DNA of 64,000 nucleotides, from positions 310,001 to 374,000 of the forward strand of contig JAMLGI010000001.1 in NCBI GenBank assembly GCA_023958085.1, in the 5' to 3' direction. Of the stretch, positions 18,258 to 36,755 are shown one piece after another. This DNA is from Solirubrobacterales bacterium. Lineage in GTDB: Bacteria > Actinomycetota > Thermoleophilia > Solirubrobacterales > 70-9. The notes beneath the pieces are model-generated. The model was not told the DNA's origin, made no database searches, and saw only the letters and a program-made list of their open reading frames with translations. Position 1 is the stretch's first letter. Every line of letters begins with the position of its first letter. The position numbers and the translations under genes are program-made.

Positions 18258-18868
18258 GCGAACCGGACTCTCTCCTGCCGCGGCGGGCAGACGCGGTCCG
18301 CAACCGGGCGCGGATCATCGCCGCGGCCGAGGCCGAGTTCCGCGAACACGGCCTTGATGCCGGGATCCCGGAGATTGCCGCCCGGGCCGGGGTCGGCAAG
18401 GGCACCATCTACCGCAACTTCGAGAGCAAGGACGAACTGCTCGCGGCGGTGATCGCGACCCGGATGGAGGAGTTCGACCGGGCCATCGTCGTGGCGCAGG
18501 ACGAGTCCGATCCCGAGCGGGCGCTGCGGCAACTTCTCGGTGACGCCGCCGCCCGAACCAGCGCGGTGACCCTCCCGGTCGGGATCGCCTGGCCGATGGA
18601 ACACCCCCGGCTCGACGAGGTACGGAGGCGAGTCACACGACACATGGGCGAGCTCTTCTCCGCCGGTCAGGCTGCGGGCGGAATCCGCCCCGAGGCCACG
18701 GTCAAGGAACTCTTCATCCTGTTCGGAGGGACCCTCCGGGCCCTCAAGGCAGACGAGGAGCAGGATCCGGAGGTGTGGCGTCGCCACGCCAATCTGGTTC
18801 TCGACGCCTTCCGCCAAGCGGGCGGCCCGCAGGAACCACCTGCAGGGGGCGGGCGGCCCGGGGTCTAG
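18254..18868 (+). CDS. TetR/AcrR-family repressor
   Basis: The 204-residue protein has an N-terminal TetR DNA-binding domain: RARIIAAAEAEFREHG, then IPEIAARAGVGKGTIYRNFESKDELL, the classic helix-turn-helix ending in the YRNFESKDEL block. The C-terminal ~130 residues form the ligand-binding/dimerisation domain. It is translationally coupled to the MFS exporter by a 4-nt overlap, and the 10-bp inverted repeat at 16692-16717 is its probable site. Its stop codon shares a CTAG tetramer with the converging stop of the next gene. Confidence 0.92.
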   Translation: MSEPDSLLPRRADAVRNRARIIAAAEAEFREHGLDAGIPEIAARAGVGKGTIYRNFESKDELLAAVIATRMEEFDRAIVVAQDESDPERALRQLLGDAAARTSAVTLPVGIAWPMEHPRLDEVRRRVTRHMGELFSAGQAAGGIRPEATVKELFILFGGTLRALKADEEQDPEVWRRHANLVLDAFRQAGGPQEPPAGGGRPGV

Positions 18869-21799: not shown

Positions 21800-21829
21800 T
21801 ATACTGAACTCGGTTCAGGTGAGTGAACC
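21800..21829 (+). promoter_or_regulatory. -10 box overlapped by three-half-site operator (IclR type) before the aldehyde dehydrogenase
   Basis: TATACT (21800-21805) is followed without a gap by TGAAC-TCG-GTTCA-GGTGAG-TGAACC. TGAAC/GTTCA (21805-21817) form one inverted repeat; GGTTCA/TGAACC (21812-21829) form a second that shares the middle half-site. The same layout recurs at 24260-24288. The iclR gene between the two sites is the probable regulator, and binding here would block the -10 region. Confidence 0.72.
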
Positions 21830-23276: not shown

Positions 23277-24068
23277 GTGGCGGACGGATCCGACAGATAT
23301 CAGGTCCCCGCGGTGGTCGGGGCGATCAAGATTCTGGACGAACTCGCCGGTCGGGGCGACGAAGGAGCCACCCAGGCCGGCCTGGTTGAAGCGACCGGGC
23401 TCTCGAAGAGCACGATGCACAACCTGCTCTCGACCCTCGAGGCCCACGACTTCGTCCGGCGTGAAACGGACACCCGAAGCTACCGGCTCGGACCCGCCCT
23501 GATCCCGCTCGGCGCCGAGGCGGGCCGTCAGGTGAAGCTGGTTCGTACCGCGATCGACCGGATCGCCCCGCTGGCTGCGAGTGAGCAACTCTCGTTCGCG
23601 GTGGCCCAGATGATCGGGCGCGACCGTTGCCGGGTGATCGAACGGTTCTATCCGCCGGAAGACGTTCACGTCGGGATCACCGTGGGCTCGGACTACGGTC
23701 CCCTCGACGGAGCGATCGGCAAGGTGATCCTGGCGGCGATGGACCCGGCCCGGGCCGATCGGCTGATTCACGATCACGAGCTGCCAGCTCACACCAACTC
23801 GACGATCACGGATCCCGATCGTCTGGCCGCGGAAGTGGACCAGGCCCGGGAGCTGGGCTGGGCGGTGAGCCGGGGCGAGCTGAACCAGAACCACGCGGTC
23901 GCCGCCGGGATCCACGGCCCCGACGGCGAGCTTGCCCTGCTGCTGCTTGCGATCGGGTTCCCCGGGGATCTCGACGACGCAAAGATGGCCGAGACCGGCC
24001 GTCGGCTGAGCGAGACTGCCGCCGAGATCTCCGTGGTCCCGGTCCGCAGGTCATCGGCAAGTAGCTGA
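23277..24068 (+). CDS. IclR-family transcriptional regulator
   Basis: The 263-residue protein has the N-terminal IclR winged helix (VPAVVGAIKILDEL; GLVEATGLSKSTMHNLLSTLEAHDFVRRE) and the C-terminal ligand-binding domain (VGSDYGPLDGAIGKVILAAM, GWAVSRGELNQNHAVAAGIHG). IclR members sense small catabolites and usually repress or activate adjacent catabolic genes. It lies between two promoters that share an identical operator layout, so it probably controls both its own aldehyde dehydrogenase operon and the hydrolase-transport cluster. The GTG start is 11 nt after the dehydrogenase stop. Confidence 0.92.
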   Translation: MADGSDRYQVPAVVGAIKILDELAGRGDEGATQAGLVEATGLSKSTMHNLLSTLEAHDFVRRETDTRSYRLGPALIPLGAEAGRQVKLVRTAIDRIAPLAASEQLSFAVAQMIGRDRCRVIERFYPPEDVHVGITVGSDYGPLDGAIGKVILAAMDPARADRLIHDHELPAHTNSTITDPDRLAAEVDQARELGWAVSRGELNQNHAVAAGIHGPDGELALLLLAIGFPGDLDDAKMAETGRRLSETAAEISVVPVRRSSASS

Positions 24069-24402
24069 GTGCGGCCGGAAAACGCCGAACCGCGCGACCT
24101 CGAGCGGCCGATTTTCCCCGACCCGGCCCATGCCCGGGCTGCTCCTTCCGGCCGCCACCGGTCGAACTCGCAATCGCATCAGGCCGGCCCGGGGCGAGGT
24201 CGTCGACCGGCCCCCGTGGGTCGGGTTGCACGTAGCGGCCGGTCGTGTTAGCTTTTCGGTATCTTGAACAGCGTTCAGGTGGCTGAACTTGACTCAATCA
24301 GGTCCAGCCGATGCGAGCAAGCGCAAAGCGAGCGGTGAGTGAGTAACCGAGGCAGCCTGCGTCAGGCAAGCACAGGTACCCGGAAACCCACAGGAGGAAG
24401 AG
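24069..24402 (+). other. Non-coding interval holding the promoter and leader of the catabolic cluster
   Basis: No convincing gene was found here. The first ~170 bp (24069-24240) are GC-rich with no recognisable feature. A -10 box plus operator sits at 24260-24288. The remaining ~115 nt would form the 5' untranslated leader, with possible hairpins CGGT/ACCG (24333-24336 with 24346-24349) and GCCTG-CGT-CAGGC (24355-24367). A strong ribosome-binding site (AGGAGGAAGAG, about 24391-24401) precedes the first gene. Confidence 0.6.
24260..24288 (+). promoter_or_regulatory. -10 box overlapped by three-half-site operator (IclR type) before the 12-gene cluster
   Basis: TATCTT (24260-24265) runs into TGAAC-AGC-GTTCA-GGTGGC-TGAAC (24265-24288). 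The half-sites, both spacers and the overlap of the last T of the -10 box with the first half-site match the element at 21800-21829; GTTCAGGTG is identical in both. This is strong evidence for co-regulation of the two operons. Confidence 0.72.
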
Positions 24403-25959
24403 ATGAGTGAAGTTCGAGAGGTAGATCTGGTCATTACCGGCGGGACGGTTGTCTCCCCGAGCGGCACCCGCAAGATGGGGGTAGCGGTCGACGACGGCAA
24501 GATCGTCGCGGTGACCGAGGACCGGTTCCTGCCGCCGGCGAAGAAGACGGTTGACGCGAACGGACTTCACGTGATTCCGGGCCTGGTCGACACCGAGGCC
24601 CATCCCGGTTGCTACTCGCCGCTGAAGGACGACCTGATGAGTGAATCCCAGGCGGCCGCCGCGGCCGGGGTCACCACCTGGGGAATCCACGCCCCGTCCA
24701 CCCGGATGGGCCACCCCGAGTTCGCCGAGTTCGTACAGAAGGAAGACGTGGTCTCCTTCCATGACTCCTTCCCGTACTTCGAGGAGGCGGTCGAGTCCGA
24801 CTCCGCGATCGATGTCTTCGCCACCTACATGCTGGAAACCGACCAGCAGGCGGCCGAGATCCCCGAGTACGCCAAGGACCACGGCGTCACCTCCTTCAAG
24901 CTTTACCTCCAGGCGATGAGCCCCGAGTCCGAACCCAACTGGCCCGGCCGCCGCGCCGGTCTCGGCGCCGGATTCGACGACGGCGTGATCTGGGTGGCGA
25001 TGGAGAACGTGGCCGCCCTGGGCCGCCCCGGCATCGTCTGCATGCACTGCGAGAACTGGGAGGTCGCCCGGATCTTCGACAAGCGCCTCAAGGATCAGGG
25101 CCGGACCGACTGGGCCACCTGGTCGGACCGCTCGCCCCACTATCTCGAGTCCTCCCACATCCGCTGGTACGGGGACATGGCCGCCCATCTCGGTTGCCCG
25201 ATCTACATCCAGCACTCCACCACCCCGGAGAGCTACAAGGAGATCCTCGAACTGCGCGGTCGCGGGGTCGAGTGTCACGCCCAGACCGGGCCGCACTGGC
25301 TCCACTTCGGCAAGGAGGAGCACAACGCCTGGCGGATCAACGTGCCGCTCCGCTCCCGCCACAACAACCCGAACATCTGGTCGGCGATCCAGGCCGGGAT
25401 CATCAACTCGGTCGGCTCCGATCACGTGGTCGCCTGGGGTGACGCCGGCTACGAAGCCTCCTACAACGAGAACATCTGGGAGCTCAAGACCGGCTTCACC
25501 TCACGGGTCGAGATGCTGCTCCCGGTGCTTCTGAACGGCGTAAACCAAGGCAAGATCAGCCTCGAACGGATGGTCGAGGTGGCCTGCTCCGAACCGGCGA
25601 AGATCTTCGGGGTCTACCCGCAGAAGGGTCTGATCGAGGTCGGCGCCGACGCCGACATCGTTCTGGTCGACCTCGACAAGGAGGTCACCGTCAAGAACGA
25701 AAACGTGCTGACCCGCTCCGGCTGGACCTGCATCATGGATCACACCCTCAAGGGCTGGGCGGTCGGCACCTTCCTCCGCGGCACCCAGGTCGCCCGGTGG
25801 GAAGATGGCGCGCCGAAGCCGGAGTACATCGGCAACTCCGAGGGTCGGTACCTCAGACGGGAGCCGGGTCAGGATCTGCTTCCGGTCGCCGGTGGCAGCG
25901 GTGTCCGGGCCGAGGTTCGCCCGGAAGTGAAGATCGGTCCCAACGACGAGGGTGCCTGA
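24403..25959 (+). CDS. Dihydropyrimidinase/hydantoinase-like amidohydrolase
   Basis: The 518-residue protein has the cyclic-amidohydrolase fold: a beta-sandwich start (VDLVITGGTVVSPSG), then the TIM barrel. Candidate metal ligands are the carboxylated Lys166 in SFKLYLQ, His215 in CMHCENWE, His271 in YIQHSTTPES and Asp340 in NSVGSDH. The usual HxH is DTEAH here, so Glu65 replaces the first His and only His67 remains. Relatives hydrolyse cyclic amides such as dihydropyrimidines, hydantoins and allantoin. The substrate is probably a ring amide but may differ because of the altered metal site. It is the first gene of the cluster, with a strong ribosome-binding site. Confidence 0.85.
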   Translation: MSEVREVDLVITGGTVVSPSGTRKMGVAVDDGKIVAVTEDRFLPPAKKTVDANGLHVIPGLVDTEAHPGCYSPLKDDLMSESQAAAAAGVTTWGIHAPSTRMGHPEFAEFVQKEDVVSFHDSFPYFEEAVESDSAIDVFATYMLETDQQAAEIPEYAKDHGVTSFKLYLQAMSPESEPNWPGRRAGLGAGFDDGVIWVAMENVAALGRPGIVCMHCENWEVARIFDKRLKDQGRTDWATWSDRSPHYLESSHIRWYGDMAAHLGCPIYIQHSTTPESYKEILELRGRGVECHAQTGPHWLHFGKEEHNAWRINVPLRSRHNNPNIWSAIQAGIINSVGSDHVVAWGDAGYEASYNENIWELKTGFTSRVEMLLPVLLNGVNQGKISLERMVEVACSEPAKIFGVYPQKGLIEVGADADIVLVDLDKEVTVKNENVLTRSGWTCIMDHTLKGWAVGTFLRGTQVARWEDGAPKPEYIGNSEGRYLRREPGQDLLPVAGGSGVRAEVRPEVKIGPNDEGA

Positions 25960-25987
25960 GCGGCACCCCGGGAAAGGAGATCCGACC

Positions 25988-26746
25988 ATGGCAAACGTAT
26001 GGGATGACGTCCTCCCCGAGGAGGACCGGCAGGTATTCGAACAGGCCGGCTGGGGCAGGGACGTCGGCTTCGGCGAGAAGCCGGTCCTGCTGGTTGTGGA
26101 CGTGATCTACAACTTCGTCGGCGACAGGCCCGAACCGATCCTCGAGTCGATCAAGAAGTGGCGCTACTCCTGTGGCGAACGGGGCTGGGAGGGCGTCAAA
26201 CACCTCGAACGGCTGATCGCAGTCGCCCGCGAGAAGCAGATCCCGATCGTCTACACCGGCATGGACCGGCGACCCGACGGCTTCGACCAGGGCGCCTGGA
26301 ACTGGAAGAGCCACCGGGCCGGTGACGCCTCCGACATCAAGGGCTCGCTCGGCAACGAGGTGGTCGAGGAAGTCAAGCCGGAGCCACAGGACATCTACTT
26401 CGTCAAGGACAAGCCGAGCGCCTTTCACGGCACCCACCTGCTCGACTACCTGATCTACCTCGGGGCGGACACGGTGATCACCACCGGCACCACCACCTCC
26501 GGCTGCGTCCGGGCGAGCGCGGTCGACGCGACCCAGTACAACTACCGCTCGATTGTGCCCGAGGAGTGCGTCTGGGACCGCTCGATGATCTCCCACAAGG
26601 TCAATCTGCTGGACATCCAGATGAAGTACGGCGACGTGAAGAAGACCGATCAGGTGATCGAGTACTTTCGTTCGCTGCCGGACCGTCCCTGCGGCCCGAA
26701 CACGCCGACCGGCGTGGCCAACACCGACCAGGAGGTGCCCGCATGA
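25988..26746 (+). CDS. Isochorismatase-like cysteine hydrolase (N-carbamoylsarcosine amidase-like)
   Basis: The 252-residue protein has the Asp-Lys-Cys triad of this superfamily: Asp38 in LLVVDVIYNF, Lys140 or Lys142 in YFVKDKPSAF, and Cys173 in TTTSGCVRASAVDA. Relatives include N-carbamoylsarcosine amidohydrolase, nicotinamidase and ureidoacrylate amidase, which hydrolyse C-N bonds of carbamoyl or amide groups. Placed after a hydantoinase-like gene, it could cleave the N-carbamoyl or amide product of ring opening. AAAGGAG lies just upstream of the ATG at 25988. It overlaps the next gene by 4 nt. Confidence 0.85.
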   Translation: MANVWDDVLPEEDRQVFEQAGWGRDVGFGEKPVLLVVDVIYNFVGDRPEPILESIKKWRYSCGERGWEGVKHLERLIAVAREKQIPIVYTGMDRRPDGFDQGAWNWKSHRAGDASDIKGSLGNEVVEEVKPEPQDIYFVKDKPSAFHGTHLLDYLIYLGADTVITTGTTTSGCVRASAVDATQYNYRSIVPEECVWDRSMISHKVNLLDIQMKYGDVKKTDQVIEYFRSLPDRPCGPNTPTGVANTDQEVPA

Positions 26747-27336
26747 GCAGCGATTCCCACGGCGACCAACTCGGCCTCGGGGTCGAGGTCCGCAAGATCG
26801 TCACCCTCGTCGAGGAGGTCCACACCGAGGGGGGACGCTCCGACGGCACCCCGCTGAAGAAGGCGGCGGTGGCGGTGGTCTTCCGGAACCCCTACGCCGG
26901 CGAGCCCTTTACCGAGGATCTCTCGGCCCTGATCGACGCCTCCCCGGCGCTCGGCAGGCTGATCGGCGAACGGGTGAACGAGGCGCTCGACGGCGAAGTC
27001 GAGTCACACGGCAAGGCCGTGGTGGTCGGCACGGACGGAGAACAGGAACACGGTAACGCGGCCAAGACCACCGCTTTCGGCAACCCCTTCCGTGAGGGGT
27101 TCGGCGGCGGCAAGGCCTGGCTCCCCTCGACCACCAAGCGCTGCGCTCCGGGGGCCAGCGTGGACGTTCCGCTCTGCTACAAGGACGAGATCTGGATCCG
27201 CTCCCACTACGACACGATCACGATCCAGGTCGCCGACGCGCCGGCCGCTGACGAGATCATGCTGATCGGGGCGGTTGCCTCCCGCGGTCGCCTCAACGCC
27301 CGGGTCGGCGGCAAGACCAAGGACGAGGTCGCGTAG
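26743..27336 (+). CDS. AA_synth (DUF1185) family protein
   Basis: The 197-residue protein resembles the amino-acid-synthesis family (Pfam AA_synth, PF06684), whose biochemical role is not settled. Typical parts are the start VRKIVTLVEEVHTEGG, AVAVVFRNPYAG, the central HGNAAKTTAFGNPFREGFGGG, and a C-terminal part ending MLIGAVASRGRLNARVGG. The family often neighbours amidohydrolases and amidases, as here. It overlaps the cysteine hydrolase by ATGA, so the two are probably made in fixed ratio. A role in substrate handling or a subsidiary hydrolytic step is inference. Confidence 0.72.
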   Translation: MSSDSHGDQLGLGVEVRKIVTLVEEVHTEGGRSDGTPLKKAAVAVVFRNPYAGEPFTEDLSALIDASPALGRLIGERVNEALDGEVESHGKAVVVGTDGEQEHGNAAKTTAFGNPFREGFGGGKAWLPSTTKRCAPGASVDVPLCYKDEIWIRSHYDTITIQVADAPAADEIMLIGAVASRGRLNARVGGKTKDEVA

Positions 27337-27364
27337 GGCCGATGCCGGGGCGGGAGGACAGACA

Positions 27365-28516
27365 GTGAGTTCCACACTCGAGGTCCGCAACCTCGGTGGC
27401 ATGGTCACCGGTCGGCTGGACGACCCGGTGGCCACCCCCGAGGTGATCCGGGTGGAGGACGGCCTGATCACCTCCTTCGAGCCCGGACCGGAACCGGACC
27501 GGGTCCTGGATGCTCACGGGGCGGTCGCAGCCCCGGGCCTGATCGACTCCCACGCGCACGTCGTCTTCGGCGACTGGACCCCTCGCCAGAGCGCCCTCGG
27601 CTGGATCGAGTCCTCACTCCACGGCGGGGTGACGATGATGATGTCCGCCTCCGAGGTCCACCTTCCCGGTCGCCCTCACGACCGGGAAGGTGTGAAGTCC
27701 CTGGCGATCGCCGCCCAGCGGGCATTCGCCGACTACCGGCCCGGCGGGGTCAAGGTGCTGGCCGGCTCGGTGATCATGGAGCCGTCCCTCACCCCGGAGG
27801 ACTTCGTCGAGCTCAGGGAGAAGGGCGTCTCCCTGGCCAAAGTGGGGTTCGGCGACTTTTCGCCCCAGGCCGATGCCGCCCCGCTGGTCCGGGCCGCCCA
27901 GGAAAACGGTTTCGTGGTGATGAATCACACCGGCGGGGCCTCGATCCCCGACTCCTCTCCGGTCACGATCGAGGACGTGCTCGCGCTCGGCTGCGACATC
28001 ATCGGCCACGCCAACGGCGGCACAACCGCCCTGCCGGATGCCGATCTGCCTCGCCTGTTCGATGCTCCCGGTGCGATTCAGCTGGTCCAGGCGGGTAACC
28101 TGAGATCCTCGATCGCGATCATGGATCACGCCTACGATCTCGACTCGCTCGACCGGATCGTGCTTGCCACCGATACCCCCACCGGCACCGGAGTCATGCC
28201 CCTCGGGATGATCAAGACGGTCTGCGAAATCTCCTCGCTCTGCGGACTCGCCGCGCCCAAGGCGCTGGCCCTGGCCACCGGTAACAACGCCGCGGTGTTG
28301 GGTCGGCCGGAGGGCATTCTGGAGCCCGGCCATCCGGCCGACCTCTTTCTGATGTTCCGTCCGCTCGGCTCGTCCTGCGACGGCCCGCTCGAATCGATCG
28401 AGAACGGAGACATCCCCGGGATCGCGGCGGTCATCGCCGACGGCGAGCTCCGGGCGCTGCGCTCAAGAAATACACCTGCCCCCGACGGGGCCTGCGAACT
28501 CAAAGGAGAGGCATGA
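27365..28516 (+). CDS. Amidohydrolase, enamidase-like
   Basis: The 383-residue amidohydrolase-superfamily enzyme starts with a short beta-sandwich and the full metal block GLIDSHAHVVFGD. Later metal-site candidates are a Lys in LAKVGFGDF, His in MNHTGG, His in IIGHANGG and Asp in LATDTPTG. The layout is closest to the enamidase/imidazolonepropionase-like group; enamidase of nicotinate-fermenting Eubacterium hydrolyses a cyclic enamide and releases ammonia. The GTG at 27365 follows a GGGAGGA ribosome-binding site. It is the second of three amidohydrolases in the cluster and overlaps DUF1989 by 4 nt. Confidence 0.8.
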   Translation: MSSTLEVRNLGGMVTGRLDDPVATPEVIRVEDGLITSFEPGPEPDRVLDAHGAVAAPGLIDSHAHVVFGDWTPRQSALGWIESSLHGGVTMMMSASEVHLPGRPHDREGVKSLAIAAQRAFADYRPGGVKVLAGSVIMEPSLTPEDFVELREKGVSLAKVGFGDFSPQADAAPLVRAAQENGFVVMNHTGGASIPDSSPVTIEDVLALGCDIIGHANGGTTALPDADLPRLFDAPGAIQLVQAGNLRSSIAIMDHAYDLDSLDRIVLATDTPTGTGVMPLGMIKTVCEISSLCGLAAPKALALATGNNAAVLGRPEGILEPGHPADLFLMFRPLGSSCDGPLESIENGDIPGIAAVIADGELRALRSRNTPAPDGACELKGEA

Positions 28517-29112
28517 CCGAGCTGATCGAAGAGGTGATCGTTCCCGCCAGCGAGGCGCGGACGATCGAGGTGAAGAAGGGTCAGACCCTCGAGATGGTCG
28601 ACCTGGAGGGCCAGCAGGTGGGCGACGTCGCGATCTGGATGGCCGCCGACCCGACCGAGTACTTCTCGCCCAGCCACACCGTCTCGACCCTGTCAAAGCT
28701 GGTTCCGGAGGTGGGCGACTCGATCCTCTCCAATCACCGCACCCCGATGATGAAGATCACCCGGGACGACGTCGGCCGTCACGACCTGATCGTCCCCTGC
28801 TGCGATCCCGAGCGCTACTCGATCGACTACGACACCCCGGGCCACCGCTCCTGCCTGGGCTCGCTCGAGGAAGCGATCGAGGGCCGGGACCTTCCCCTCC
28901 GGGGCGAGATGTGCTGGAACGTGTTCATGAACAACCAGCTTGAGGACGGCAGGATCGTCACCTACGAACCGCCGCATCCGGCCGGATCGACGATCGCCCT
29001 GGAGGCCCTGGAGGACGTGACCGTGGCCCTCTCCGCCTGTCCCCAGGACATCTCGGCAGTGAATGCCTACAACCCGACCCCGATGGCACTTCGGGTCAGG
29101 AGCGGCGACTGA
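28513..29112 (+). CDS. DUF1989 (urea carboxylase-associated / carboxyguanidine deiminase-like) protein
   Basis: The 199-residue protein fits the DUF1989 family. The N-terminal barrel includes VKKGQTLEMVDLEGQQVGD; SPSHT and CCDPERY blocks follow, with MCWNVFMNNQLEDGR and HPAGSTIALEALEDVTVALSACPQD at the C-terminal end. Characterised members (CgdAB) deiminate carboxyguanidine; others are only known as urea-carboxylase neighbours. No urea or guanidine carboxylase gene is present here, so a deiminase role on another amidine or amide intermediate is possible but unproven. It overlaps its neighbours at both ends. Confidence 0.78.
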   Translation: MTELIEEVIVPASEARTIEVKKGQTLEMVDLEGQQVGDVAIWMAADPTEYFSPSHTVSTLSKLVPEVGDSILSNHRTPMMKITRDDVGRHDLIVPCCDPERYSIDYDTPGHRSCLGSLEEAIEGRDLPLRGEMCWNVFMNNQLEDGRIVTYEPPHPAGSTIALEALEDVTVALSACPQDISAVNAYNPTPMALRVRSGD

Positions 29113-29771
29113 CTGGATACGCGACAGACGAGCTGGCGGTCGCCGAGGCCGCACGGATCATCGCCGGGGCCGGTCTGGTCGAGGCCTTCGGGCACGTCTC
29201 GGCGCGCTCCGGGGACGGCTTCCTGATCACCGCGACCCGGCCGCTCGGCAGCGCCACCGCCGCCGACATCCAGCGGGTGGACAGCGAGGGAATCCCGGCT
29301 GAGGACGCGGTCGACCTGCCACTCGAGGCGCCGCTGCACGCCGCCGTCTACGCGGCCCGTCCCGACATCGGGGCGATCTGCCGCACCCACTCCCCGGCGG
29401 CGGTGCGGGCCGGGGCGCGGGCCGAAGTGCCACCGCTCACCCACGGTCTCGGCGGGCTTTCCGGCGAGATCCGGCTCTGCGAACGGATCGATCTGGTTAC
29501 CGATGCCGGGGCAGGCAGGGAGATCGCGGTCGCACTCGGCGGCGCTGACTGTCTGCTGATCCGGGCCAACGGTGCGATCGCCACCGGGGCCGACCTCGCC
29601 GGAGCGGTGGTCCGGGCCCGCTACCTCGAGGAACGATGCGAGCTCTCGGCCGACGCGCCGGACGGGGCCGCTATCGGAACCCGTGAACTTGAATCCCGCT
29701 CCGTCTGGTTTGACCAGGAAAGAGCCCGTGCCTGGGCCTGGATGAGGTGGAGGTACGGGAAGGCGTCCTGA
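29109..29771 (+). CDS. Class II aldolase/adducin-like protein, degenerate metal site, apparent CTG start
   Basis: The frame encodes an aldolase II domain beginning DELAVAEAARIIAGAG and GHVSAR. No ATG, GTG or TTG precedes these blocks in frame; the first is a GTG at 29277, deep inside the domain. CTG at 29109 overlaps the DUF1989 stop as CTGA, mirroring the ATGA couplings elsewhere in the operon, and gives 220 residues. Compared with fuculose-phosphate aldolase, Glu73 and His94 are kept, but His92 is Arg (ICRTHS) and the third ligand His is Asn154 (RANG). Zinc binding is therefore doubtful; a non-aldolase, regulatory or altered catalytic role is likely. Confidence 0.7.
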   Translation: MTGYATDELAVAEAARIIAGAGLVEAFGHVSARSGDGFLITATRPLGSATAADIQRVDSEGIPAEDAVDLPLEAPLHAAVYAARPDIGAICRTHSPAAVRAGARAEVPPLTHGLGGLSGEIRLCERIDLVTDAGAGREIAVALGGADCLLIRANGAIATGADLAGAVVRARYLEERCELSADAPDGAAIGTRELESRSVWFDQERARAWAWMRWRYGKAS

Positions 29772-29826
29772 TCTAACGAGTCAACTCAAGGCAGTATCGG
29801 TTCAATTAATGAGGAGAGAGGTACAA

Positions 29827-30864
29827 ATGAGTTTCACGCAACACCGCAAGCGTTTTCTGGCAGCACTGCTGGCTTCCATGGTCTTGGTGGCCGGTCTGGC
29901 CGCATGTGGCGGCAGCAGCGACGATTCCGGCTCCGGTGATACCGGATCCACCCAGGACGCGACTCTGGTTCTGGACTTCATCCCGGGTGCCGTCCACGCC
30001 GGGATCTACGAAGCCCAGAAGGCCGGTTACTACAAGGACAACGGAATCAACCTGAAGATCATCGAGCCGACCTCGACCGCCGACACGCTCAAGCTGATCG
30101 ACGCCGGCAAGGCCGACTTCGGTCTGGCCGACGGCATCGATCTCGCCTCGCAGATCGAGCAGGGCCGTGAGGCAAAGGGGATCATGGCGATGCTTCAGCG
30201 TCCCCCCGGTGGTCTGATCACCCTGAAGAAGGACAACATCGCAACCCCGGCCGATCTGGCGGGCAAAACGGTTGGCGTTACCGGCGTTCCGTCGGACAAC
30301 GCGATCCTGGACACGATCATGGCTGACGCGGGCGCCAGTTCCGACGACGCCAAGGTCGTGACCATCGGGTTCAACGGCGTGCAGGCGCTTGAGTCCGGCA
30401 AGGTCCAGGCGTTCACCGGTTTCATTCCGGCAGACGCGGTCCAGGTCGAGGCCGACGGCCAGCCGACCAAGTCGTTCAGCCTGGACGAGAACGGGGGCCC
30501 CTCCTACCCGGGTCTCGTCGCCTTCTCGACCGAGTCCCGGATCAAGGACAAGCCGGACCTGATGAAGGGCTTCGTCGAAGCCACGATCAAGGGTTACCAG
30601 GATGCGCTGGAAGATCCGGCCAAGGCGATCGACGACCTGATCTCGCAGACCCAGGGGATCGACAAGGAACTGGCGACCAAGTCGTTCGAGCAGTGGGTGC
30701 CGCTGATGGGCCCGGCTGATACCTACGGCCAGTTCGACCAGAAGAACCTCGAGTCGCTGTCGTCCTTCCTCGTGGAGAACGAACTCGCCAAGGAGCCGAT
30801 CGCTCCGGATCGTTACGCGACCAACGAGTTCACCGGTGGCGCCGAGCTGACCGCCGGCAAGTAG
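29827..30864 (+). CDS. ABC transporter substrate-binding lipoprotein (NMT1/SsuA type)
   Basis: The 345-residue precursor has a basic N-terminus, a hydrophobic signal and lipobox VLVAGLAACGG, so it is a lipid-anchored binding protein. The mature part starts with an acidic Ser/Gly linker, then LVLDFIPGAVHAGIYEAQKAGYYKDNGINLKI, the pattern of NMT1/THI5-like proteins that bind pyrimidine precursors, riboflavin, sulfonates or other small ligands. GKADFGLADGIDLA and LAGKTVGVTG are further family blocks. It begins the importer section of the cluster. The ATG at 29827 follows GAGGAGAGAGG. The likely ligand is the substrate of the cluster's hydrolases. Confidence 0.88.
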   Translation: MSFTQHRKRFLAALLASMVLVAGLAACGGSSDDSGSGDTGSTQDATLVLDFIPGAVHAGIYEAQKAGYYKDNGINLKIIEPTSTADTLKLIDAGKADFGLADGIDLASQIEQGREAKGIMAMLQRPPGGLITLKKDNIATPADLAGKTVGVTGVPSDNAILDTIMADAGASSDDAKVVTIGFNGVQALESGKVQAFTGFIPADAVQVEADGQPTKSFSLDENGGPSYPGLVAFSTESRIKDKPDLMKGFVEATIKGYQDALEDPAKAIDDLISQTQGIDKELATKSFEQWVPLMGPADTYGQFDQKNLESLSSFLVENELAKEPIAPDRYATNEFTGGAELTAGK

Positions 30865-30900
30865 GCGAAGCGGGACGCAGAAGAAAGGATCGGCATACAG

Positions 30901-31719
30901 GTGGCTTCGAAGCTCACAATCGAGGGTCTCTCCAAGATCTATCGCGGCACCGGCGGCGCCGAGAACGTGACCGCCCTGAAGGACGTCGCAATCGAGATCG
31001 GGGACGGGGAGTTCGTTTCGATCGTCGGGCCTTCGGGCTGCGGCAAGTCGACCCTGTTCAACATCATCGCCGGGCTGATCCGGCCGTCGAGCGGCACCGT
31101 GCTGCTCGACGGTCGGCAGCGCGACGACCTGCTCGGCTCGGTCGGCTACATGCCGCAACGGGACTGCCTGATGCCCTGGCGGTCGGTCCTCGAGAACACC
31201 ACGCTCGGGCTTGAACTGACCGGCGTGAAACGGAAGGAAGCCAGGCAGCAGGCTCTGGCCGAGTTCGCCCGGTTCGGGCTGGCCGGCTTCGAGGATCAGT
31301 GGCCGGCCAAGCTTTCGGGCGGGATGAAGCAGCGTGCGGCGCTGCTTCGCACCTTCCTGGCCGGCCGGGATCTGATGCTTCTGGACGAACCGTTCGGAGC
31401 GCTGGACGCCCTGACCCGCGCCAACATGCAGCAGTGGCTCCTGGATGTCTGGAGCCAGAACCGCAAGACCATCCTCTTCGTCACCCATGACGTCGAGGAG
31501 GCAATCTTTCTCTCCGACCGGGTGTATGTGATGTCCGGCCGGCCCGGCCGGGTCTCGCTCTGCGTGGACGTGAAGATCGAGCGTCCGCGCCGACCCGAGA
31601 TCTCGATGTCCCCCGAGTTCCTGCTGCTCAAGCAGAAGCTGCTCAGGCCGCTCGAGATGGCGGCAGCACCCGATGGCAGTTTCCCGGTCGACCGTCCCAC
31701 CGTGGAGGAGAACCTCTGA
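30901..31719 (+). CDS. ABC transporter ATP-binding protein (nitrate/sulfonate/pyrimidine type)
   Basis: The 272-residue ATPase has Walker A GPSGCGKST, Q-loop YMPQRDCLMPW, signature LSGGMKQRAALLR, Walker B LMLLDEPFGALD and switch His in FVTHDVEEA. The C-terminal ~60 residues follow the SsuB/TauB pattern. It energises import with the binding protein upstream and the permease downstream. It starts with GTG 36 nt after the binding protein and shares one nucleotide with the permease start (TGATG). Confidence 0.93.
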   Translation: MASKLTIEGLSKIYRGTGGAENVTALKDVAIEIGDGEFVSIVGPSGCGKSTLFNIIAGLIRPSSGTVLLDGRQRDDLLGSVGYMPQRDCLMPWRSVLENTTLGLELTGVKRKEARQQALAEFARFGLAGFEDQWPAKLSGGMKQRAALLRTFLAGRDLMLLDEPFGALDALTRANMQQWLLDVWSQNRKTILFVTHDVEEAIFLSDRVYVMSGRPGRVSLCVDVKIERPRRPEISMSPEFLLLKQKLLRPLEMAAAPDGSFPVDRPTVEENL

Positions 31720-32543
31720 TGTTTGCCCGTGGTACCCGCAGCCGGCGGCTCGCCGGCGCCATCCTCCCACCCCTCCTGTTCGCGATCGCCGTGCTGGTCG
31801 TCTGGCAGCTCTACGTGGTGATCGGTGGGGTCAAGGAATCGACCCTGCCCAAGCCGACCGACATCATCGACTCGATGTGGCAGAACCGCACGATGCTGAT
31901 CGAGAACGCCTGGGTCACGATCAAGGAGATCATCCTCGGCTTCATCGCCGCGATCATCCTCGGGGTCGGCCTGGCGGTCCTGATCCGCAGTTCACGCAAG
32001 GTGGAACGGGCGATCTACCCCTGGCTGGTGGTGTCCCAGATGGTGCCGATCCCGGCGATCGCTCCGCTGCTGGTGATCTGGACCGGCTTCGACATGAGGC
32101 CGAAGGTGCTGGTGATCATGCTGGTCAGCTTCTTCCCGATCGCGGTCAACACGATCGACGGGCTGAGAGCGGTCGAGCCGGAACTGATGAACCTGCTGAA
32201 GACGCTCCGGGCGAACGCCTGGCAGCGCTTCCGCAAGGCCCAGCTTCCGGCAGCTCTGCCCTTCATGTTCTCCGGCCTCAAGGTGGCGGCCGCCCTTTCA
32301 GTGATCGGAGCGGTCTTCGCCGAATGGGTCGGGGCTTCCGACGGTCTCGGATACCTGGTGCTCGTTCTCAACAACCAGACCGCGACCACCGACATGTTTG
32401 CGGTGATCGTCACCCTGGCCCTGATCGGGATCAGCCTCTTCCTCCTGGTGACCCTGCTTGAGCGCCTGCTCCTGCCCTGGTACTACGAGTCCCGGGAGTC
32501 GGAAGGCGAGGGGCTTCACATCGATCCGGACGACCCGAGCTGA
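31719..32543 (+). CDS. ABC transporter permease
   Basis: The 274-residue membrane protein has about six hydrophobic segments. The cytoplasmic coupling block is LKTLRANAWQRFRKAQLPAALPFMFSGL, the EAA-like motif of SsuC/TauC-type permeases. It ends in an acidic soluble tail. With the binding protein and the ATPase it makes a complete high-affinity importer inside the catabolic cluster; only one permease gene is present, so it should act as a homodimer. Confidence 0.92.
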   Translation: MFARGTRSRRLAGAILPPLLFAIAVLVVWQLYVVIGGVKESTLPKPTDIIDSMWQNRTMLIENAWVTIKEIILGFIAAIILGVGLAVLIRSSRKVERAIYPWLVVSQMVPIPAIAPLLVIWTGFDMRPKVLVIMLVSFFPIAVNTIDGLRAVEPELMNLLKTLRANAWQRFRKAQLPAALPFMFSGLKVAAALSVIGAVFAEWVGASDGLGYLVLVLNNQTATTDMFAVIVTLALIGISLFLLVTLLERLLLPWYYESRESEGEGLHIDPDDPS

Positions 32544-32571
32544 GCGCCCGGACAGCCGGCGGAAAGCTGAA

Positions 32572-34008
32572 ATGAACGAACGAGGCAACAGGGACACGGC
32601 GGGCGATGGGTCGGCCAAGGGCGCTGCGACGACGATCGTCCGGGGCGCCTGGGTGCTGACCATGGGACCGGCCGGGGCGCTTCGCGATGCGGCGGTTGCC
32701 TTCGACGGCGACGGCCGGATCATCGCGACCGGCCGGGCGGACGAGCTGATCGCCACCAACCCCGGGGCGGAGCTGGTCGGCGACGGCAACGGCATCGTGA
32801 TGCCGGGCTTCGTCAACGCCCACACCCACCTGACCGAGGGTCTGATCACCGGCATGGGTGAGACCGCCGTGCTCTGGGAGTGGTTCACCCGGGTGGTCAA
32901 TCCGTCGGGCGAAATCATCACCCGGGAACAGGTCGGGCTCGGCACCCGTCTCAAGGCGGTCGAGATGCTGGAGTCGGGGATCACCACGGTCAACGACATG
33001 TCCTGCCACCGCAATCTCGGTTCGCTGGCCTCGCTCGGCGCGGTTGACGGCCTCGCCGAGATGGGCCTGCGGGGGATCGTCTGCTTCGGCGCGGAGGATC
33101 TCTACGACAACGCGCCTTCCGCCGATCTGTTCATGGCGGAGCATGAGGCGCTGGCCGACCGGATCGCCCCGGAACCACTGATCGGCTTCCGGGCCGGGGT
33201 CGGAACCGTGCTCGGGATCTCGGACGAACTGTTCACTCGAACGATCGCGGCCTGCGCCGAACACGGCTGGGCGGTACACACCCATCTGGCCGAGGTTCGC
33301 GAGGAGGTGACCGAGTCCAAGCTGACCAACGACGGCTGCGACACGATCGAGCACGCCGACCGTAAGGGTTTGCTGGACCACGAGGTGATCGCCGGCCACT
33401 GCATCTGGTGCTCCGAGAACGACATCGGCCTGCTCGCCTCCCGGGATGTGGCGGTTGCCCACAACCCGGTTGCGAACATGATCCTCGCCTCCGGGGTCTG
33501 CCCGGTGCCGCGACTGCGCCGGGAGGGCGTACGGATCGGGATCGGCACCGACGGGGCCGCCTCGAACGACTCCCAGGACATGTTCGGCGCGATCAAAACG
33601 GCCGCCCTGCTGCAGAAAGTTCACAAGCTGGAAGCCACCGCGATGACCGCCCCCGAGGTACTGGAGATGGCGACGATCGGTGGTGCCCGGGCACTCGGTC
33701 TCGAAGACGAGATCGGTTCGCTCGAACCGGGAAAGCGGGCCGATCTGGTCCTGCTCGATGGCAACGGACCGGAGCTGGCGGTCCTCCACGATCCGTTCCA
33801 GCAGATCGTGTACGGCGCTACGCCACGCAGCGTCTCCGAGGTCTGGGTCGATGGCGTCCACCGGGTGACCGGTGCGGCGACGATCGGCATCGACCGCACG
33901 GCACTGGCCGCCGAGGCCCGGGAGAACGCCCGGGACCTGGCGAATCGTGGCGCCATGAAGGGCGAGTCGGCCTACGCCGGCCCGCTCCCATTCGAAGAAG
34001 GGAAGTAG
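32572..34008 (+). CDS. Amidohydrolase/deaminase of the TrzA / SAH-MTA deaminase group
   Basis: The 478-residue protein is an amidohydrolase with an intact mononuclear metal site: HxH in NAHTHLTEG, His and Glu in HTHLAEVREE, His in GHCIWCSE and Asp in GTDGAASNDSQDMF. The last block is diagnostic of the triazine/nucleoside/guanine deaminase and chlorohydrolase group. It probably removes an exocyclic amino or similar group from a heteroaromatic ring. It follows the importer genes by 28 nt, so it may carry out an early step on the imported compound. The ATG at 32572 was chosen; the longer frame overlaps the permease. Confidence 0.87.
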   Translation: MNERGNRDTAGDGSAKGAATTIVRGAWVLTMGPAGALRDAAVAFDGDGRIIATGRADELIATNPGAELVGDGNGIVMPGFVNAHTHLTEGLITGMGETAVLWEWFTRVVNPSGEIITREQVGLGTRLKAVEMLESGITTVNDMSCHRNLGSLASLGAVDGLAEMGLRGIVCFGAEDLYDNAPSADLFMAEHEALADRIAPEPLIGFRAGVGTVLGISDELFTRTIAACAEHGWAVHTHLAEVREEVTESKLTNDGCDTIEHADRKGLLDHEVIAGHCIWCSENDIGLLASRDVAVAHNPVANMILASGVCPVPRLRREGVRIGIGTDGAASNDSQDMFGAIKTAALLQKVHKLEATAMTAPEVLEMATIGGARALGLEDEIGSLEPGKRADLVLLDGNGPELAVLHDPFQQIVYGATPRSVSEVWVDGVHRVTGAATIGIDRTALAAEARENARDLANRGAMKGESAYAGPLPFEEGK

Positions 34009-34011
34009 ACG

Positions 34012-35646
34012 ATGGCTGACACCAGCGACATCGTTGTGATCGGGGCCGGCCACAACGGCCTCGCCTGTGCCTCATACCTGGCCCGGGCCGGACTCTCGGT
34101 GACCGTGCTCGAATCCTCCGACACCCCGGGCGGCTGCATCTTTACCCAGGATCAGCCCTCCGGCAACCGGCTGGAACTGGGTGGCTACGAACATGGCGGA
34201 ATCCGGGCTTCGGGGGTGACCGCCGACCTCGAACTCGAGTCCCGCTACGGGCTGAAGTTCCACGAGCGGGAAGAGATCCTCTTCGCCCCCTGCGACGACG
34301 GCACCCCGCTCGCCTTCTGGAACTCGCTGGAGCGCACCGTGGAAAGCCTGGCCGAAACGGTCGGCCGTGAGGAGGCGGAGCGCTACCGGGCCTTCTCCAA
34401 CTGGTCCTCGGCCGCGATGAATGTGCTCGGCCAGGCCGAGTCCGGTCCTCCGCCGAGCATCCGTTCGCTGGCCGCGGTCGCTGATGCCACCCTCGGCTCG
34501 GAGGGTTCCCGGCTGATGCAGGCCCTGTTCGCCCCGGCGACCGCGATCGCTGAAGCGGCCTTCGAGGACGACCGGCTGCGCGGCCCGCTGAATCACTGGG
34601 CGGCCCACTCCCAGCAACCGCCGCAGGCGCCGGGCACCGGGGCGGGAGCGCTGTTTCTCGCCGCCTCGCACGGCGCTCCGGCGATCCGGCCGGCCGGTGG
34701 TTCCCGGGGCACGGTAGACGCCCTGGTCCGCTGCCTCGAAGACTCGGGTGGCAGCGTGATCTGCTCGGCTGCGGCCGAACGGGTTGAGCTGTTCGGCGGC
34801 CGCGCCCGGGCGGTGATCGCCGGGGGCGAGCGCTACGAGGCCCGCAAGGCGGTGATCTCGGCGATCGACGCCCGCCGACTCTTCCTCGGCCTGATGGACG
34901 AAAAGGAACTGCCGTCCTCGCTGGTCGCCGAGGTGAAGCGAATCCACTTCTCCCAGCACAACGTGGCCGAACTGAAGGTGGACGCGGTGATCGACCTGGT
35001 GCCGCACGTGAACGGACCGGACGGGATGGAGCGGGCCTTCATGCTCTCCGCCAACACCGGCACCGACATCGCCCGGGCCTTCAGCGCGATCGGGCTGGGG
35101 CAACTGCCGGAGCGGCCCCCGGTGATGATCGCTTTCCCCTCGGTGCTCGAGTCTGGCTGGGCGCCGGAGGGCCAGGGTGTGGTCTGGCTTTCGACCTTCG
35201 TGCCGTGGACCCCGGAGAACGGACCGTGGGACCGGAAGCTGCTTGAGGAAGCGTCGGACCTGACCTGGAAGACGGCCGAGAAGGCGCTCGGCTACGAGAT
35301 GACCGCGGTCGAAAGAAAGATCACCGGGCCGGAGGACTGGGTGGCCCGTCACGGCAACCCGGGCTCCAACCCGAACCACATCGAGATGAGCATCGACCAG
35401 CTGATGGGGATGCGCCCCTCGGTTTCCCTCTCCGGATACTCGACCCCGGTCCCCGGTCTCTTCCTGACCGGTGCCGGCACCCATCCGGGCGGCGGCATCA
35501 CCGGGGTTCCGGGCCGCAACTCGGCCGCTGTGGTGATGGAGCACCTCGGGATCACGAAGCGAGCCCGGATGAAGAAACTGCGCACCCAGGCGGCGATGCT
35601 GAAGGACGCGCTGAAGGCGACCAGAGAGTTGAGGAAGAACGCATGA
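34012..35646 (+). CDS. FAD-dependent oxidoreductase (phytoene desaturase/PYROXD2-like)
   Basis: The 544-residue flavoprotein begins with a Rossmann dinucleotide motif (IVVIGAGHNGLACASYLARAG) and a matching Glu (VLESSDTPGG). The C-terminal FAD block is PGLFLTGAGTHPGGGITGVPGRN. Overall this is the CrtI-like flavin amine oxidase group; many members are not carotenoid enzymes. No other carotenoid gene is near, so oxidation or desaturation of a ring or amine in the cluster's pathway is more likely. It starts 3 nt after the deaminase stop and overlaps the methyltransferase by ATGA. Confidence 0.82.
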   Translation: MADTSDIVVIGAGHNGLACASYLARAGLSVTVLESSDTPGGCIFTQDQPSGNRLELGGYEHGGIRASGVTADLELESRYGLKFHEREEILFAPCDDGTPLAFWNSLERTVESLAETVGREEAERYRAFSNWSSAAMNVLGQAESGPPPSIRSLAAVADATLGSEGSRLMQALFAPATAIAEAAFEDDRLRGPLNHWAAHSQQPPQAPGTGAGALFLAASHGAPAIRPAGGSRGTVDALVRCLEDSGGSVICSAAAERVELFGGRARAVIAGGERYEARKAVISAIDARRLFLGLMDEKELPSSLVAEVKRIHFSQHNVAELKVDAVIDLVPHVNGPDGMERAFMLSANTGTDIARAFSAIGLGQLPERPPVMIAFPSVLESGWAPEGQGVVWLSTFVPWTPENGPWDRKLLEEASDLTWKTAEKALGYEMTAVERKITGPEDWVARHGNPGSNPNHIEMSIDQLMGMRPSVSLSGYSTPVPGLFLTGAGTHPGGGITGVPGRNSAAVVMEHLGITKRARMKKLRTQAAMLKDALKATRELRKNA

Positions 35647-36653
35647 GCAGTCCGAACGAGCCGGTGGCGGCGTCCCCGTTTGCGGTGGTCGACCAGATCA
35701 CCGACTACCAGAAGTCCGCCCTGATCGGGACGGCGGTCGAGCTCGGCCTGCCGAACGAACTCCATGAAAAGACCGCCACCCTGGCGGAGCTGACCGGAGT
35801 GCTCGGCACCGACTCCCGCGGCACCATGGGTCTGCTCTCCGGCCTGGTCGAGTTCGGCCTGGTTGAACGGGACGGGGACCGGTTCGGTCTGACCGCGGCC
35901 GGGGCGATGCTGGCCGACGAGCATCCCGACACGGTCGCCTGGATCGCCCGCAAGGAGTGGTTCTTCTACAAGCTTTGGGCAGCCATGCCGGAGGCGGTCA
36001 GGACCGGCCACACCCAGACCGGCGCCTGGCGTGACCGGCTGGAAAACGATCCGGCCCAGGCCCACGACTTCCTGCGGGCACTGGACGACCTCTGCCGCCT
36101 CTACGGCGGCGGTCTGCCGGACCTTGCCGGACTCGAAAAGGGCGGCCGGCTGCTGGACATCGGCGGCGGCGCCGGTTCCCACTCGGCGAATCTGGTCAAG
36201 GCGGTCGACGGCCTCGAAGCAACCGTGCTCGACCTCCCCGGGGCCGAACCGGTGCTCAGGGAGCGACATCCCGAGATCGGCTTTGTCGCCGGGGATTTCG
36301 ACCTGCCGCGCTTCGGCCGGCCCGAGGGCGAGCTGTGGGATTACGTGCTCGTATCGAACATCCTGCACGACAACCCGGCCGAACGGAACGCCCGGATCAT
36401 CGCCGAGGCGGCTTCGCTGCTCGCCCCCGGCGGCAGCCTGGTGATCTACGAGTGGGTGATCGACGAGGGTCGCACCAGCCCGCCCGGCGTTGCCTCCTTC
36501 ACCCCGATGATGGTGATCGAGAACGAGGGCGGCTGGACCTGGACCGAGGCCGAGATCGGTGAGTGGATCGAGGCCGCCGGCCTCAGGGCCCGACCGATGA
36601 ATCGCGGCCAGGGCCCGATCGCCGCAATCCGCGCCGATCAACCCACCCCATAA
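35643..36653 (+). CDS. SAM-dependent O-methyltransferase (acetylserotonin-MT/COMT family)
   Basis: The 336-residue enzyme has an N-terminal winged-helix dimerisation domain (~residues 10-90) and a Rossmann SAM domain with LLDIGGGAGSHS (SAM loop), DLPGAEPV (acidic ribose contact) and LVSNILHDNPAERN (catalytic His region). Family members methylate hydroxyls of small aromatic or N-heterocyclic compounds. A methyltransferase at the end of a degradative operon is unusual: it could protect an intermediate, make a signal, or be part of an unknown biosynthetic branch. It is the last gene before a hairpin. Confidence 0.86.
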   Translation: MSSPNEPVAASPFAVVDQITDYQKSALIGTAVELGLPNELHEKTATLAELTGVLGTDSRGTMGLLSGLVEFGLVERDGDRFGLTAAGAMLADEHPDTVAWIARKEWFFYKLWAAMPEAVRTGHTQTGAWRDRLENDPAQAHDFLRALDDLCRLYGGGLPDLAGLEKGGRLLDIGGGAGSHSANLVKAVDGLEATVLDLPGAEPVLRERHPEIGFVAGDFDLPRFGRPEGELWDYVLVSNILHDNPAERNARIIAEAASLLAPGGSLVIYEWVIDEGRTSPPGVASFTPMMVIENEGGWTWTEAEIGEWIEAAGLRARPMNRGQGPIAAIRADQPTP

Positions 36654-36668
36654 ACCCAGCCCCCAACG

Positions 36669-36717
36669 GTTCTGGAGCCGGTTTAGGCGGCATGGCAGCC
36701 ACAATCGGCTCCAGAAC
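36669..36717. terminator. Hairpin between convergent operons
   Basis: GTTCTGGAGCCG (36669-36680) and CGGCTCCAGAAC (36706-36717) form a perfect 12-bp stem with a 25-nt loop. It lies 15 bp after the methyltransferase stop and before the convergent end of the GH92 gene. There is no long T-run, so Rho-independent termination is uncertain, but position and stem strength fit a bidirectional terminator or RNA end-protecting hairpin. Confidence 0.55.
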
Positions 36718-36755
36718 GGCGGGGCTTTGCCGGGGACGTTTGGTTTGGGTCGGAA

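Follow-up and report, generated by a model that had tools for sequence, protein, structure and literature searches.

A set of fourteen genes in a Solirubrobacterales bacterium (lineage 70-9) may constitute a single IclR-controlled catabolic regulon for the import and stepwise breakdown of nitrogen heterocycles, with 7-deazapurines as the favoured substrates. This reading as a whole is plausible rather than probable; that the regulon exists and is conserved is practically certain. The genes lie within a 64,000-nucleotide stretch of DNA, referred to here as the window (positions 310,001 to 374,000 of contig JAMLGI010000001.1, assembly GCA_023958085.1). A preliminary description of the window had recognized twelve of them, at 24403 to 36653 on the forward strand, as an import and degradation cluster for some cyclic amide or N-heterocycle. 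The cluster itself holds, and the proposal of import followed by successive C-N bond cleavages is supported. The limit to twelve genes does not stand, as the unit also includes the upstream genes for an aldehyde dehydrogenase and an IclR-family regulator, and a co-regulated module in relatives suggests a narrower substrate class, the 7-deazapurines.

For each of the twelve genes Pfam supports the family that had been named. In order they are HYD (24403 to 25959), a hydantoinase/dihydropyrimidinase-like amidohydrolase by family match and alignment in which E-x-H replaces H-x-H; ICH (25988 to 26746), an isochorismatase-family amidohydrolase closest to N-carbamoylsarcosine amidase; AAS (26743 to 27336), a member of PF06684 (AA_synth, DUF1185); ENA (27365 to 28516), an enamidase-type amidohydrolase with a proposed GTG start; a DUF1989 protein (28513 to 29112); ALD2 (29109 to 29771), a class II aldolase-family protein by Pfam and NCBIfam with a proposed CTG start; SBP (29809 to 30864), an NMT1/THI5-like substrate-binding protein; the ATPase (30901 to 31719) and permease (31719 to 32543) of an ATP-binding cassette (ABC) transporter, both by Pfam; TRZ (32572 to 34008), a TRZ/ATZ-family aminohydrolase (deaminase) by Pfam, NCBIfam and motif residues; CRT (34012 to 35646), a CrtO/CrtI-like FAD oxidoreductase that also matches the amine oxidase family PF01593; and OMT (35643 to 36653), an S-adenosylmethionine (SAM)-dependent methyltransferase (PF00891 with PF08100). 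With the GTG start chosen for ENA and the CTG start for ALD2, the eleven junctions from HYD to OMT are spaced by -4 to +37 bp, within the 55 bp given earlier, and include four overlaps of 4 nt and one of 1 nt. The apparent CTG start of ALD2 (29109 to 29111) creates one of the 4-nt overlaps, with DUF1989; read this way, the protein enters its Pfam domain at residue 11.

A 24-bp operator, TGAACNNNGTTCAGGTGNNTGAAC, connects this block to the two genes upstream of it. Pattern searches place the first copy (21805 to 21828, forward strand) before the genes for ALDH (21862 to 23265, forward strand; PF00171) and the IclR-family regulator (23277 to 24068, forward strand; assigned by domain match and syntenic in relatives), and the second copy (24265 to 24288, forward strand) before HYD, within the 334-bp gap that separates HYD from the IclR gene. 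Two copies in the window compare with none expected in shuffled sequence, and with a looser pattern and one mismatch allowed the same two copies are the sole occurrences in the whole 2.44-Mb genome. Eleven loci from relatives, totalling 186 kb, contain 20 sites with at most three mismatches in 17 positions, where 20 block shuffles gave 0.15 on average. All 20 lie at gene starts, namely those of ALDH (8), HYD (9) and TRZ2 (3), the deaminase gene of a module (module B, see below) found in some relatives. Since the operator is common to both gene blocks, ALDH and IclR are assigned to the unit, and the IclR protein is presumed to bind the TGAACNNNGTTCAGGTGNNTGAAC sites.

The gene order is retained well beyond the genome under study. 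PF06684 occurs in 11 of 18 genomes of the genus, the window genome included, and all ten of the other loci keep the order of the window from HYD on; five of them reach OMT and five end at contig edges. A locus of the same family (L054) has the full gene order, as does one of the same order (L058), where the ALDH gene is relocated between ENA and DUF1989. This retention across the genus, L054 and L058 argues that the cluster is not a product of chance, and it bears out the expectation that the genes would be conserved together. Across 396 sampled genomes of the phylum, PF06684 was found in 23, in 21 of them above the cutoff, and wide stretches were available for 19 of the 23. Among the 30 matches, four fragments (L020, L021, L027 and L028, from genomes G160 and G028) and two matches below the cutoff (L022 and L023, from G383 and G314) were left out, and tandem copies shared one stretch. 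Six of these genomes (G000, G165, G218, G022, G127 and G013) have PF06684 together with ENA, DUF1989 and ALD2, and with HYD in whole or in part.

A core of six genes, HYD-ICH-AAS-ENA-DUF1989-ALD2, is found again in Chloroflexi and in other Actinomycetota, at 41-62% identity. These loci were drawn from the best 80 of at least 557 confirmed ENA relatives from named genomes; several pairs among the loci stem from the same genome and are not independent (L121/L074, L083/L050, L084/L058, L077/L044, L078/L053 and L079/L056). The core is present in the Chloroflexi (L088; L090 and L089 end at contig edges), in the Acidimicrobiia (L097, L098, L103 and L130) and in an unclassified bacterium (L100). In the last of these a type III-B CRISPR cassette (L100:4481-12801) encoding Cmr1, Cas10/Cmr2, Cmr3 (below cutoff), Cmr4, Cmr6 and a TIGR02221 protein separates ENA from DUF1989 within the conserved operon. 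The other members are variable: for each of ALDH, the NMT1-type importer, TRZ, CRT and OMT there are loci that lack it, in part owing to contig ends, and ALDH directly follows ENA in L058 and L086 and comes after DUF1989 in L074/L121. A class III aminotransferase gene is found in six relatives (L097, L098, L103, L121, L183 and L184). Two loci of Streptomyces turgidiscabies (L087 and L085), whose ENA is 63-68% identical, were rejected as having no HYD or ICH within the stretches examined; judged by eye, L087 resembles a different heterocycle cluster. Plasmid records gave matches to HYD (407), ICH (321), ENA (25) and DUF1989 (453), all below 60% identity, and none of the six plasmid regions examined (three for ICH, two for ENA and one for DUF1989) contains the core.

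The chemistry of the core is most clearly indicated by ENA. Its closest solved relative is the enamidase of Eubacterium barkeri (2vun; E 4.5e-93 over residues 3-376), and the metal-site residues H63, H65, H188, H215 and D270 are invariant in 22 of 22 aligned sequences, so that "enamidase-like" was correct as to family and understated a strong kinship over the whole length. AAS belongs to a family whose function had been no more than a guess in the 2010 structure paper (PMC2954203). It scores 218.8 bits against the PF06684 cutoff of 27; the family has known structures (2qtp and 3byq), and the AAS model superimposes on 3byq with Z 24.7 over 182 residues at 2.0 Å. Of the 80 enamidase loci, 64 have a PF06684 gene no more than 5 kb from the enamidase gene and 45 have one within 150 bp; among the 60 loci with at least 5 kb on either side the number within 5 kb is 51. 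Sixteen of the 80 have no PF06684 gene within 5 kb; in one of these, L086, module B keeps the two genes apart. Other loci have PF06684 but no enamidase nearby (e.g., L060, L063, L065-L067, L070, L071, L073 and L075). Given the recurrent adjacency of ENA and AAS, the simplest reading is that the enamidase cuts the enamide and that AAS probably acts on the enamine or imine that is released. Conversion of a cyclic enamide to an aldehyde by the two proteins is accordingly likely.

The pair of genes is found in a range of other settings. Among 89 loci whose genes were grouped by clustering, a 4Fe-4S protein of the annotated families is encoded in 20, a molybdenum hydroxylase in 18 and a Rieske oxygenase in 13, and the two plasmid regions examined for ENA are further neighbourhoods of AA_synth and enamidase. 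A Mariluticola plasmid (L160:8395-15909) has the order AA_synth, enamidase, FAD monooxygenase, TRAP transporter and succinate-semialdehyde dehydrogenase, the dehydrogenase scoring over its family cutoff; this block is a candidate compact pathway for a hydroxypyridine-type compound. Tandem PF06684 pairs occur in three genomes (L062, at 9899 and 10471; L063, at 9353 and 9931; L066, at 9218 and 9796), and such copies might form mixed oligomers. A second AA_synth gene at L057 (9844; G406:C12:75843-76364) encodes a protein 41% identical and has no enamidase gene in its 20-kb stretch; the full cluster is present in the same genome, G406.

The remaining enzymes of the core are placed in their families with less precision. 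HYD belongs to the hydantoinase family and falls under the cutoff of all 25 NCBIfam models listed for it, including D-hydantoinase/dihydropyrimidinase (TIGR02033; 201.8 of 393.25 bits, below the equivalog cutoff). At the first HxH position, which is presumably part of a metal-binding motif, it has Glu in all 17 aligned sequences with a letter there, two of which (L074 and L121) come from the same genome. The closest relatives of ICH are N-carbamoylsarcosine amidases, and its catalytic triad is retained wherever the alignment has a letter (Asp 18/18, Lys 18/18, Cys 19/19). Its score for RutB is 35.6 of 377.95 bits, which places it outside the Rut pyrimidine pathway. TRZ retains the motif residues of TRZ/ATZ deaminases in 13 or 14 of 14 sequences. 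Three cysteines of the DUF1989 protein align with cysteines of the DUF1989 domain of trimethylamine N-oxide (TMAO) demethylase, which we take to be zinc ligands, and are retained in 20 of 20 sequences. The protein scores 96.6 of 284.7 bits against urea-amidolyase-associated protein 2 (UAAP2) and 54.9 of 205.95 against UAAP1, presumably CgdB and CgdA, respectively. It thus shares a family with the guanidine carboxylase pathway (CgdAB), from which the cluster differs in having no carboxylase, urea carboxylase included. The best NCBIfam match of ALD2 is the dihydroxyphthalate decarboxylase PhtC (63 of 200 bits, below cutoff). The closest solved relatives of SBP are 4nmy (E 1.6e-34) and the N-formyl-aminopyrimidine (FAMP) binder 3ix1 (E 2.9e-28), followed by THI5, which bears out the suggestion that this family points to pyrimidine-like ligands and makes SBP a homologue of the ThiY-type pyrimidine-binding proteins. 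A first-lobe segment that we assume to contact the ligand, LDWxPN, reads LDWYPN in 3ix1, LDWTPN in 4nmy and LDFIPG in SBP; since Trp and Asn are replaced by Phe and Gly, the ligand of SBP may differ from theirs.

The reactions, their order and every substrate are what we infer from such gene content and kinships. The ABC importer would bring in an amino-substituted bicyclic or pyrimidine-type heterocycle, from which TRZ would strip the exocyclic amine. HYD would then open the lactam of the pyrimidine ring to give a ureido acid, and ICH would cleave off the carbamoyl group to leave an amino-heterocycle carboxylate for decarboxylation by ALD2. DUF1989 could deiminate the resulting cyclic amidine, converting an aminopyrrole to a pyrrolinone, after which ENA would open the cyclic enamide, AAS would hydrolyse the enamine or imine and free an aldehyde, and ALDH would oxidize the semialdehyde. 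With a 7-carboxy substrate, ENA would act on 5-oxo-4,5-dihydropyrrole-3-carboxylate, a five-ring, one-carbon-smaller analogue of 6-oxo-tetrahydronicotinate, the substrate of the E. barkeri enamidase, and the products would be 2-formylsuccinate and then succinate semialdehyde. CRT could oxidize an aminomethyl group such as that of preQ1, a task that the class III aminotransferase of relatives would also fit.

The narrowing to 7-deazapurines comes from module B, which consists of TRZ2, a PnrA-type substrate-binding protein, an ATPase, two permeases, a CN_hydrolase, a histone-deacetylase-like amidohydrolase and a protein of about 300 amino acids, f29. Module B is located between IclR and HYD in L049 and L050/L083/L167 and after OMT in L166; in L081, where the deacetylase-like gene is missing, it separates ICH from AAS, and in L086 it separates AAS from ENA. 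The operator precedes TRZ2 with one mismatch in L166, two in L049 and three in L167, and the best score of TRZ2 is to an 8-oxoguanine deaminase model, below cutoff. All nine aligned members of f29 match both NCBIfam models of the archaeosine synthase ArcS (best E 1.8e-8). Among solved proteins the f29 profile matches AF0587 and no other (E 0.00099), by way of the segment LLLPCTARKPYLTSRTHRAL. Of 12 matching loci (in which L074/L121 and L050/L083 are the same genomes), 11 have a motif that we take to be the ArcS signature, PC-x3-KPY-x2-S-x2-H, and DUF5591, the Pfam family of this segment, was matched in three archaea and in no other of 14 control genomes. The f29 model (pLDDT 91.9) superimposes on AF0587 with Z 11.4 and 2.4 Å over 134 residues (VIA-align), the next match being uracil-DNA glycosylase at 5.2; a Foldseek search with the model gave no match at E <= 0.001. 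ArcS transfers lysine to preQ0, a 7-deazaguanine (PMC11298593, PMC6884629).

The f29 protein tracks the core across genomes. Strong matches were found in two of the 396 phylum genomes, both among the six core-bearing ones (p 1.9e-4), and two further matches, both weak and partial (E 1.4e-4 and E 7.9e-4; stops in one), were set aside. In the family, f29 occurs in three of 50 genomes, all core-bearing (p 0.019). Nine of 11 core-bearing genomes tested have f29, six of the nine having been chosen with its presence already known; of the five whose f29 status was previously open (L088, L089, L090, L080 and L130), three have it and two do not. In two Chloroflexi genomes (L181 and L182) f29 lies beside a PnrA-type importer on a contig different from that of the core. 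That an ArcS relative is co-regulated with the core, along with a hydrolase of the nitrilase family, a deaminase and an importer of the PnrA type, suggests substrates of the 7-deazaguanine type, of which preQ0, preQ1 and 7-carboxy-7-deazaguanine are the leading, unproven candidates. The window genome encodes the tRNA-guanine transglycosylase TGT (408.7 bits; G000:C9:104558-105685) and has no match to QueC, a combination that would fit dependence on 7-deazaguanine bases taken up from outside. Matches to QueC at E <= 0.001 were found in 45 of 50 family genomes, and these are read as parts of other proteins because the best reaches 38.3 bits over 63 of 210 positions.

Several observations weigh against 7-deazapurines as the substrate. 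The window has no module B, its genome has no f29 or other ArcS-like gene, and such a gene occurs in only three of the 14 cluster-bearing genomes of the family. While f29 shares the motif segment and the AF0587 fold with ArcS, it differs in matching a single segment of the ArcS models and in falling far below their cutoffs, the first member reaching 29.1 of 440 bits with one model and 22.3 of 600 with the other. Across the family 46 of 50 genomes match TGT, which does not separate cluster-bearing from cluster-free genomes, and short QueC matches exceed the Pfam cutoff in 32 of the 50. No firm role falls to CRT, to OMT or to the class III aminotransferase that some relatives encode, ALD2 has RTH in place of HxH, presumably the usual zinc motif, and the nearest solved relatives of SBP are of thiamin-pyrimidine types. 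The remote fold matches of AAS (Z 4.4-7.0, among them AIR synthetase, ThiL, chorismatase, Rid, AmnE and barbiturase) do not decide what it catalyses. Its fold is compatible with that of the Rid/RutC imine-enamine deaminases, but Rid PA0814 at Z 6.0, AmnE at Z 4.8 and barbiturase at Z 4.8 score no higher than unrelated proteins, which reach Z 7.0. Action of the core on 7-deazapurines is put forward tentatively, and for the cluster of the window slightly more so, module B being absent.

The next candidate, because of the relatives of SBP, is the pyrimidine half of thiamine, as hydroxymethylpyrimidine (HMP), FAMP or the 5-carboxylate. TRZ would remove the 4-amino group, CRT and ALDH would oxidize the 5-substituent, and HYD would open the 3,4-lactam to give an acetamidine for deimination by DUF1989, with ENA and AAS hydrolysing the enamide and enamine, ALD2 decarboxylating formylmalonate and ALDH finishing malonate semialdehyde. 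This scheme agrees with 4nmy, FAMP-binding 3ix1 and then THI5 as the nearest relatives of SBP and with the below-cutoff matches of DUF1989 to families of the guanidine pathway, and it gives CRT and ALDH a use. However, a 2-methyl ring would leave ICH, a carbamoyl-hydrolase relative within the core, idle, the LDFIPG segment of SBP may signify another ligand, and nothing in the scheme explains why module B has an ArcS-like protein and an importer of the PnrA type; breakdown of thiamine pyrimidine is unlikely. Purines are a slim prospect. The clostridial route from xanthine to formiminoglycine proceeds by ring opening, decarbamoylation, decarboxylation, deamination and ring opening, the same step logic as that proposed for the cluster, the comparison being one of steps and not of the enzymes themselves. 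In an aerobic version TRZ would carry out a guanine-type deamination, HYD would open xanthine, ICH would hydrolyse the ureido-imidazole, ALD2 would decarboxylate, DUF1989 would deaminate the aminoimidazole, ENA would open the imidazolone and AAS would break down formiminoglycine. The first steps and enzyme classes would be identical, TRZ2 scores best to 8-oxoguanine deaminase, the importer of module B is PnrA-like, and an NMT1-motif riboswitch is reported to sense xanthine and uric acid (PMC7373994). The predicted product of the cluster is a semialdehyde, whereas the clostridial route ends in formiminoglycine. Such a route has no need of ALDH or of an ENA related to an aldehyde-yielding enamidase; the ArcS-like protein would again have no explanation, and an Rfam scan of the window found three tRNAs and no riboswitch.

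A pyridine or nicotinate-type substrate, with HYD, ICH and TRZ acting on side groups, would account for the homology of ENA over its whole length to the enamidase of E. barkeri nicotinate fermentation, with which conversion of a cyclic enamide to an aldehyde may be shared, and for the molybdenum hydroxylases or aromatic FAD monooxygenase in other ENA-AAS clusters. The cluster differs from that fermentation in adding HYD, ICH, TRZ, DUF1989 and ALD2. Scans of the cluster genes found no molybdenum hydroxylase, Rieske oxygenase, [4Fe-4S] reductase or aromatic FAD monooxygenase, and neither nicotinate dehydrogenase nor 6-hydroxynicotinate reductase is among the genes scanned, the rest of the genome not having been searched for these two; a pyridine is very unlikely. 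The preliminary description had also noted a partial likeness to creatinine and hydantoin routes. A deaminase, a hydantoinase-family enzyme and an enzyme like N-carbamoylsarcosine amidase are indeed the textbook set for use of creatinine, hydantoins or cyclic ureides by way of N-methylhydantoin and N-carbamoyl amino acids such as N-carbamoylsarcosine, and to that extent the likeness is real. The enamide-to-aldehyde step of ENA and AAS would be superfluous there, however, and HYD falls short of the D-hydantoinase cutoff (201.8 of 393.25 bits). This route is the most improbable of those considered and was rejected as the principal explanation because seven co-conserved enzymes (ENA, AAS, DUF1989, ALD2, ALDH, CRT and OMT), which it does not need, would be left with no work.

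Directly 3' of OMT is a 30-nt inverted repeat (36662 to 36724, no strand assigned; arms 77% complementary, 3-nt loop) that is a candidate transcript end, and the 3' neighbour of OMT is a GH92 glycosidase gene on the opposite strand. Farther upstream, 18865 to 20085 on the reverse strand encodes an Alanine-racemase-N-type protein with a weak match, far below cutoff, to the aldolase BhcC. The IclR protein of the cluster scores best to BhcR, likewise far below cutoff.

Literature searches, covering titles and the openings of abstracts with subscription papers largely outside their reach, found no pathway with this gene set, as had been supposed, and no breakdown route for 7-deazaguanine bases. 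Bases of the 7-deazaguanine type are found in soil antibiotics. They also occur in tRNA and in phage DNA (PMC6884629). A broader proposal, that the cluster represents the first 7-deazapurine catabolic pathway, with two import or entry modules, one of them containing the ArcS relative, feeding a shared core that would open the pyrimidine half as in xanthine and the pyrrole half by means of an enamidase, and that AAS, as an enamine or imine hydrolase, generally completes enamidase reactions, is doubtful in its entirety. If true, it would provide the first catabolic route for 7-deazapurines, including those of the archaeosine-base or pyrrolopyrimidine-antibiotic types. Substrate aside, the regulon has an operator unique in its genome and can be induced and measured, and PF06684, whatever the substrate, gains a specific and testable partner in the enamidase-type amidohydrolases.

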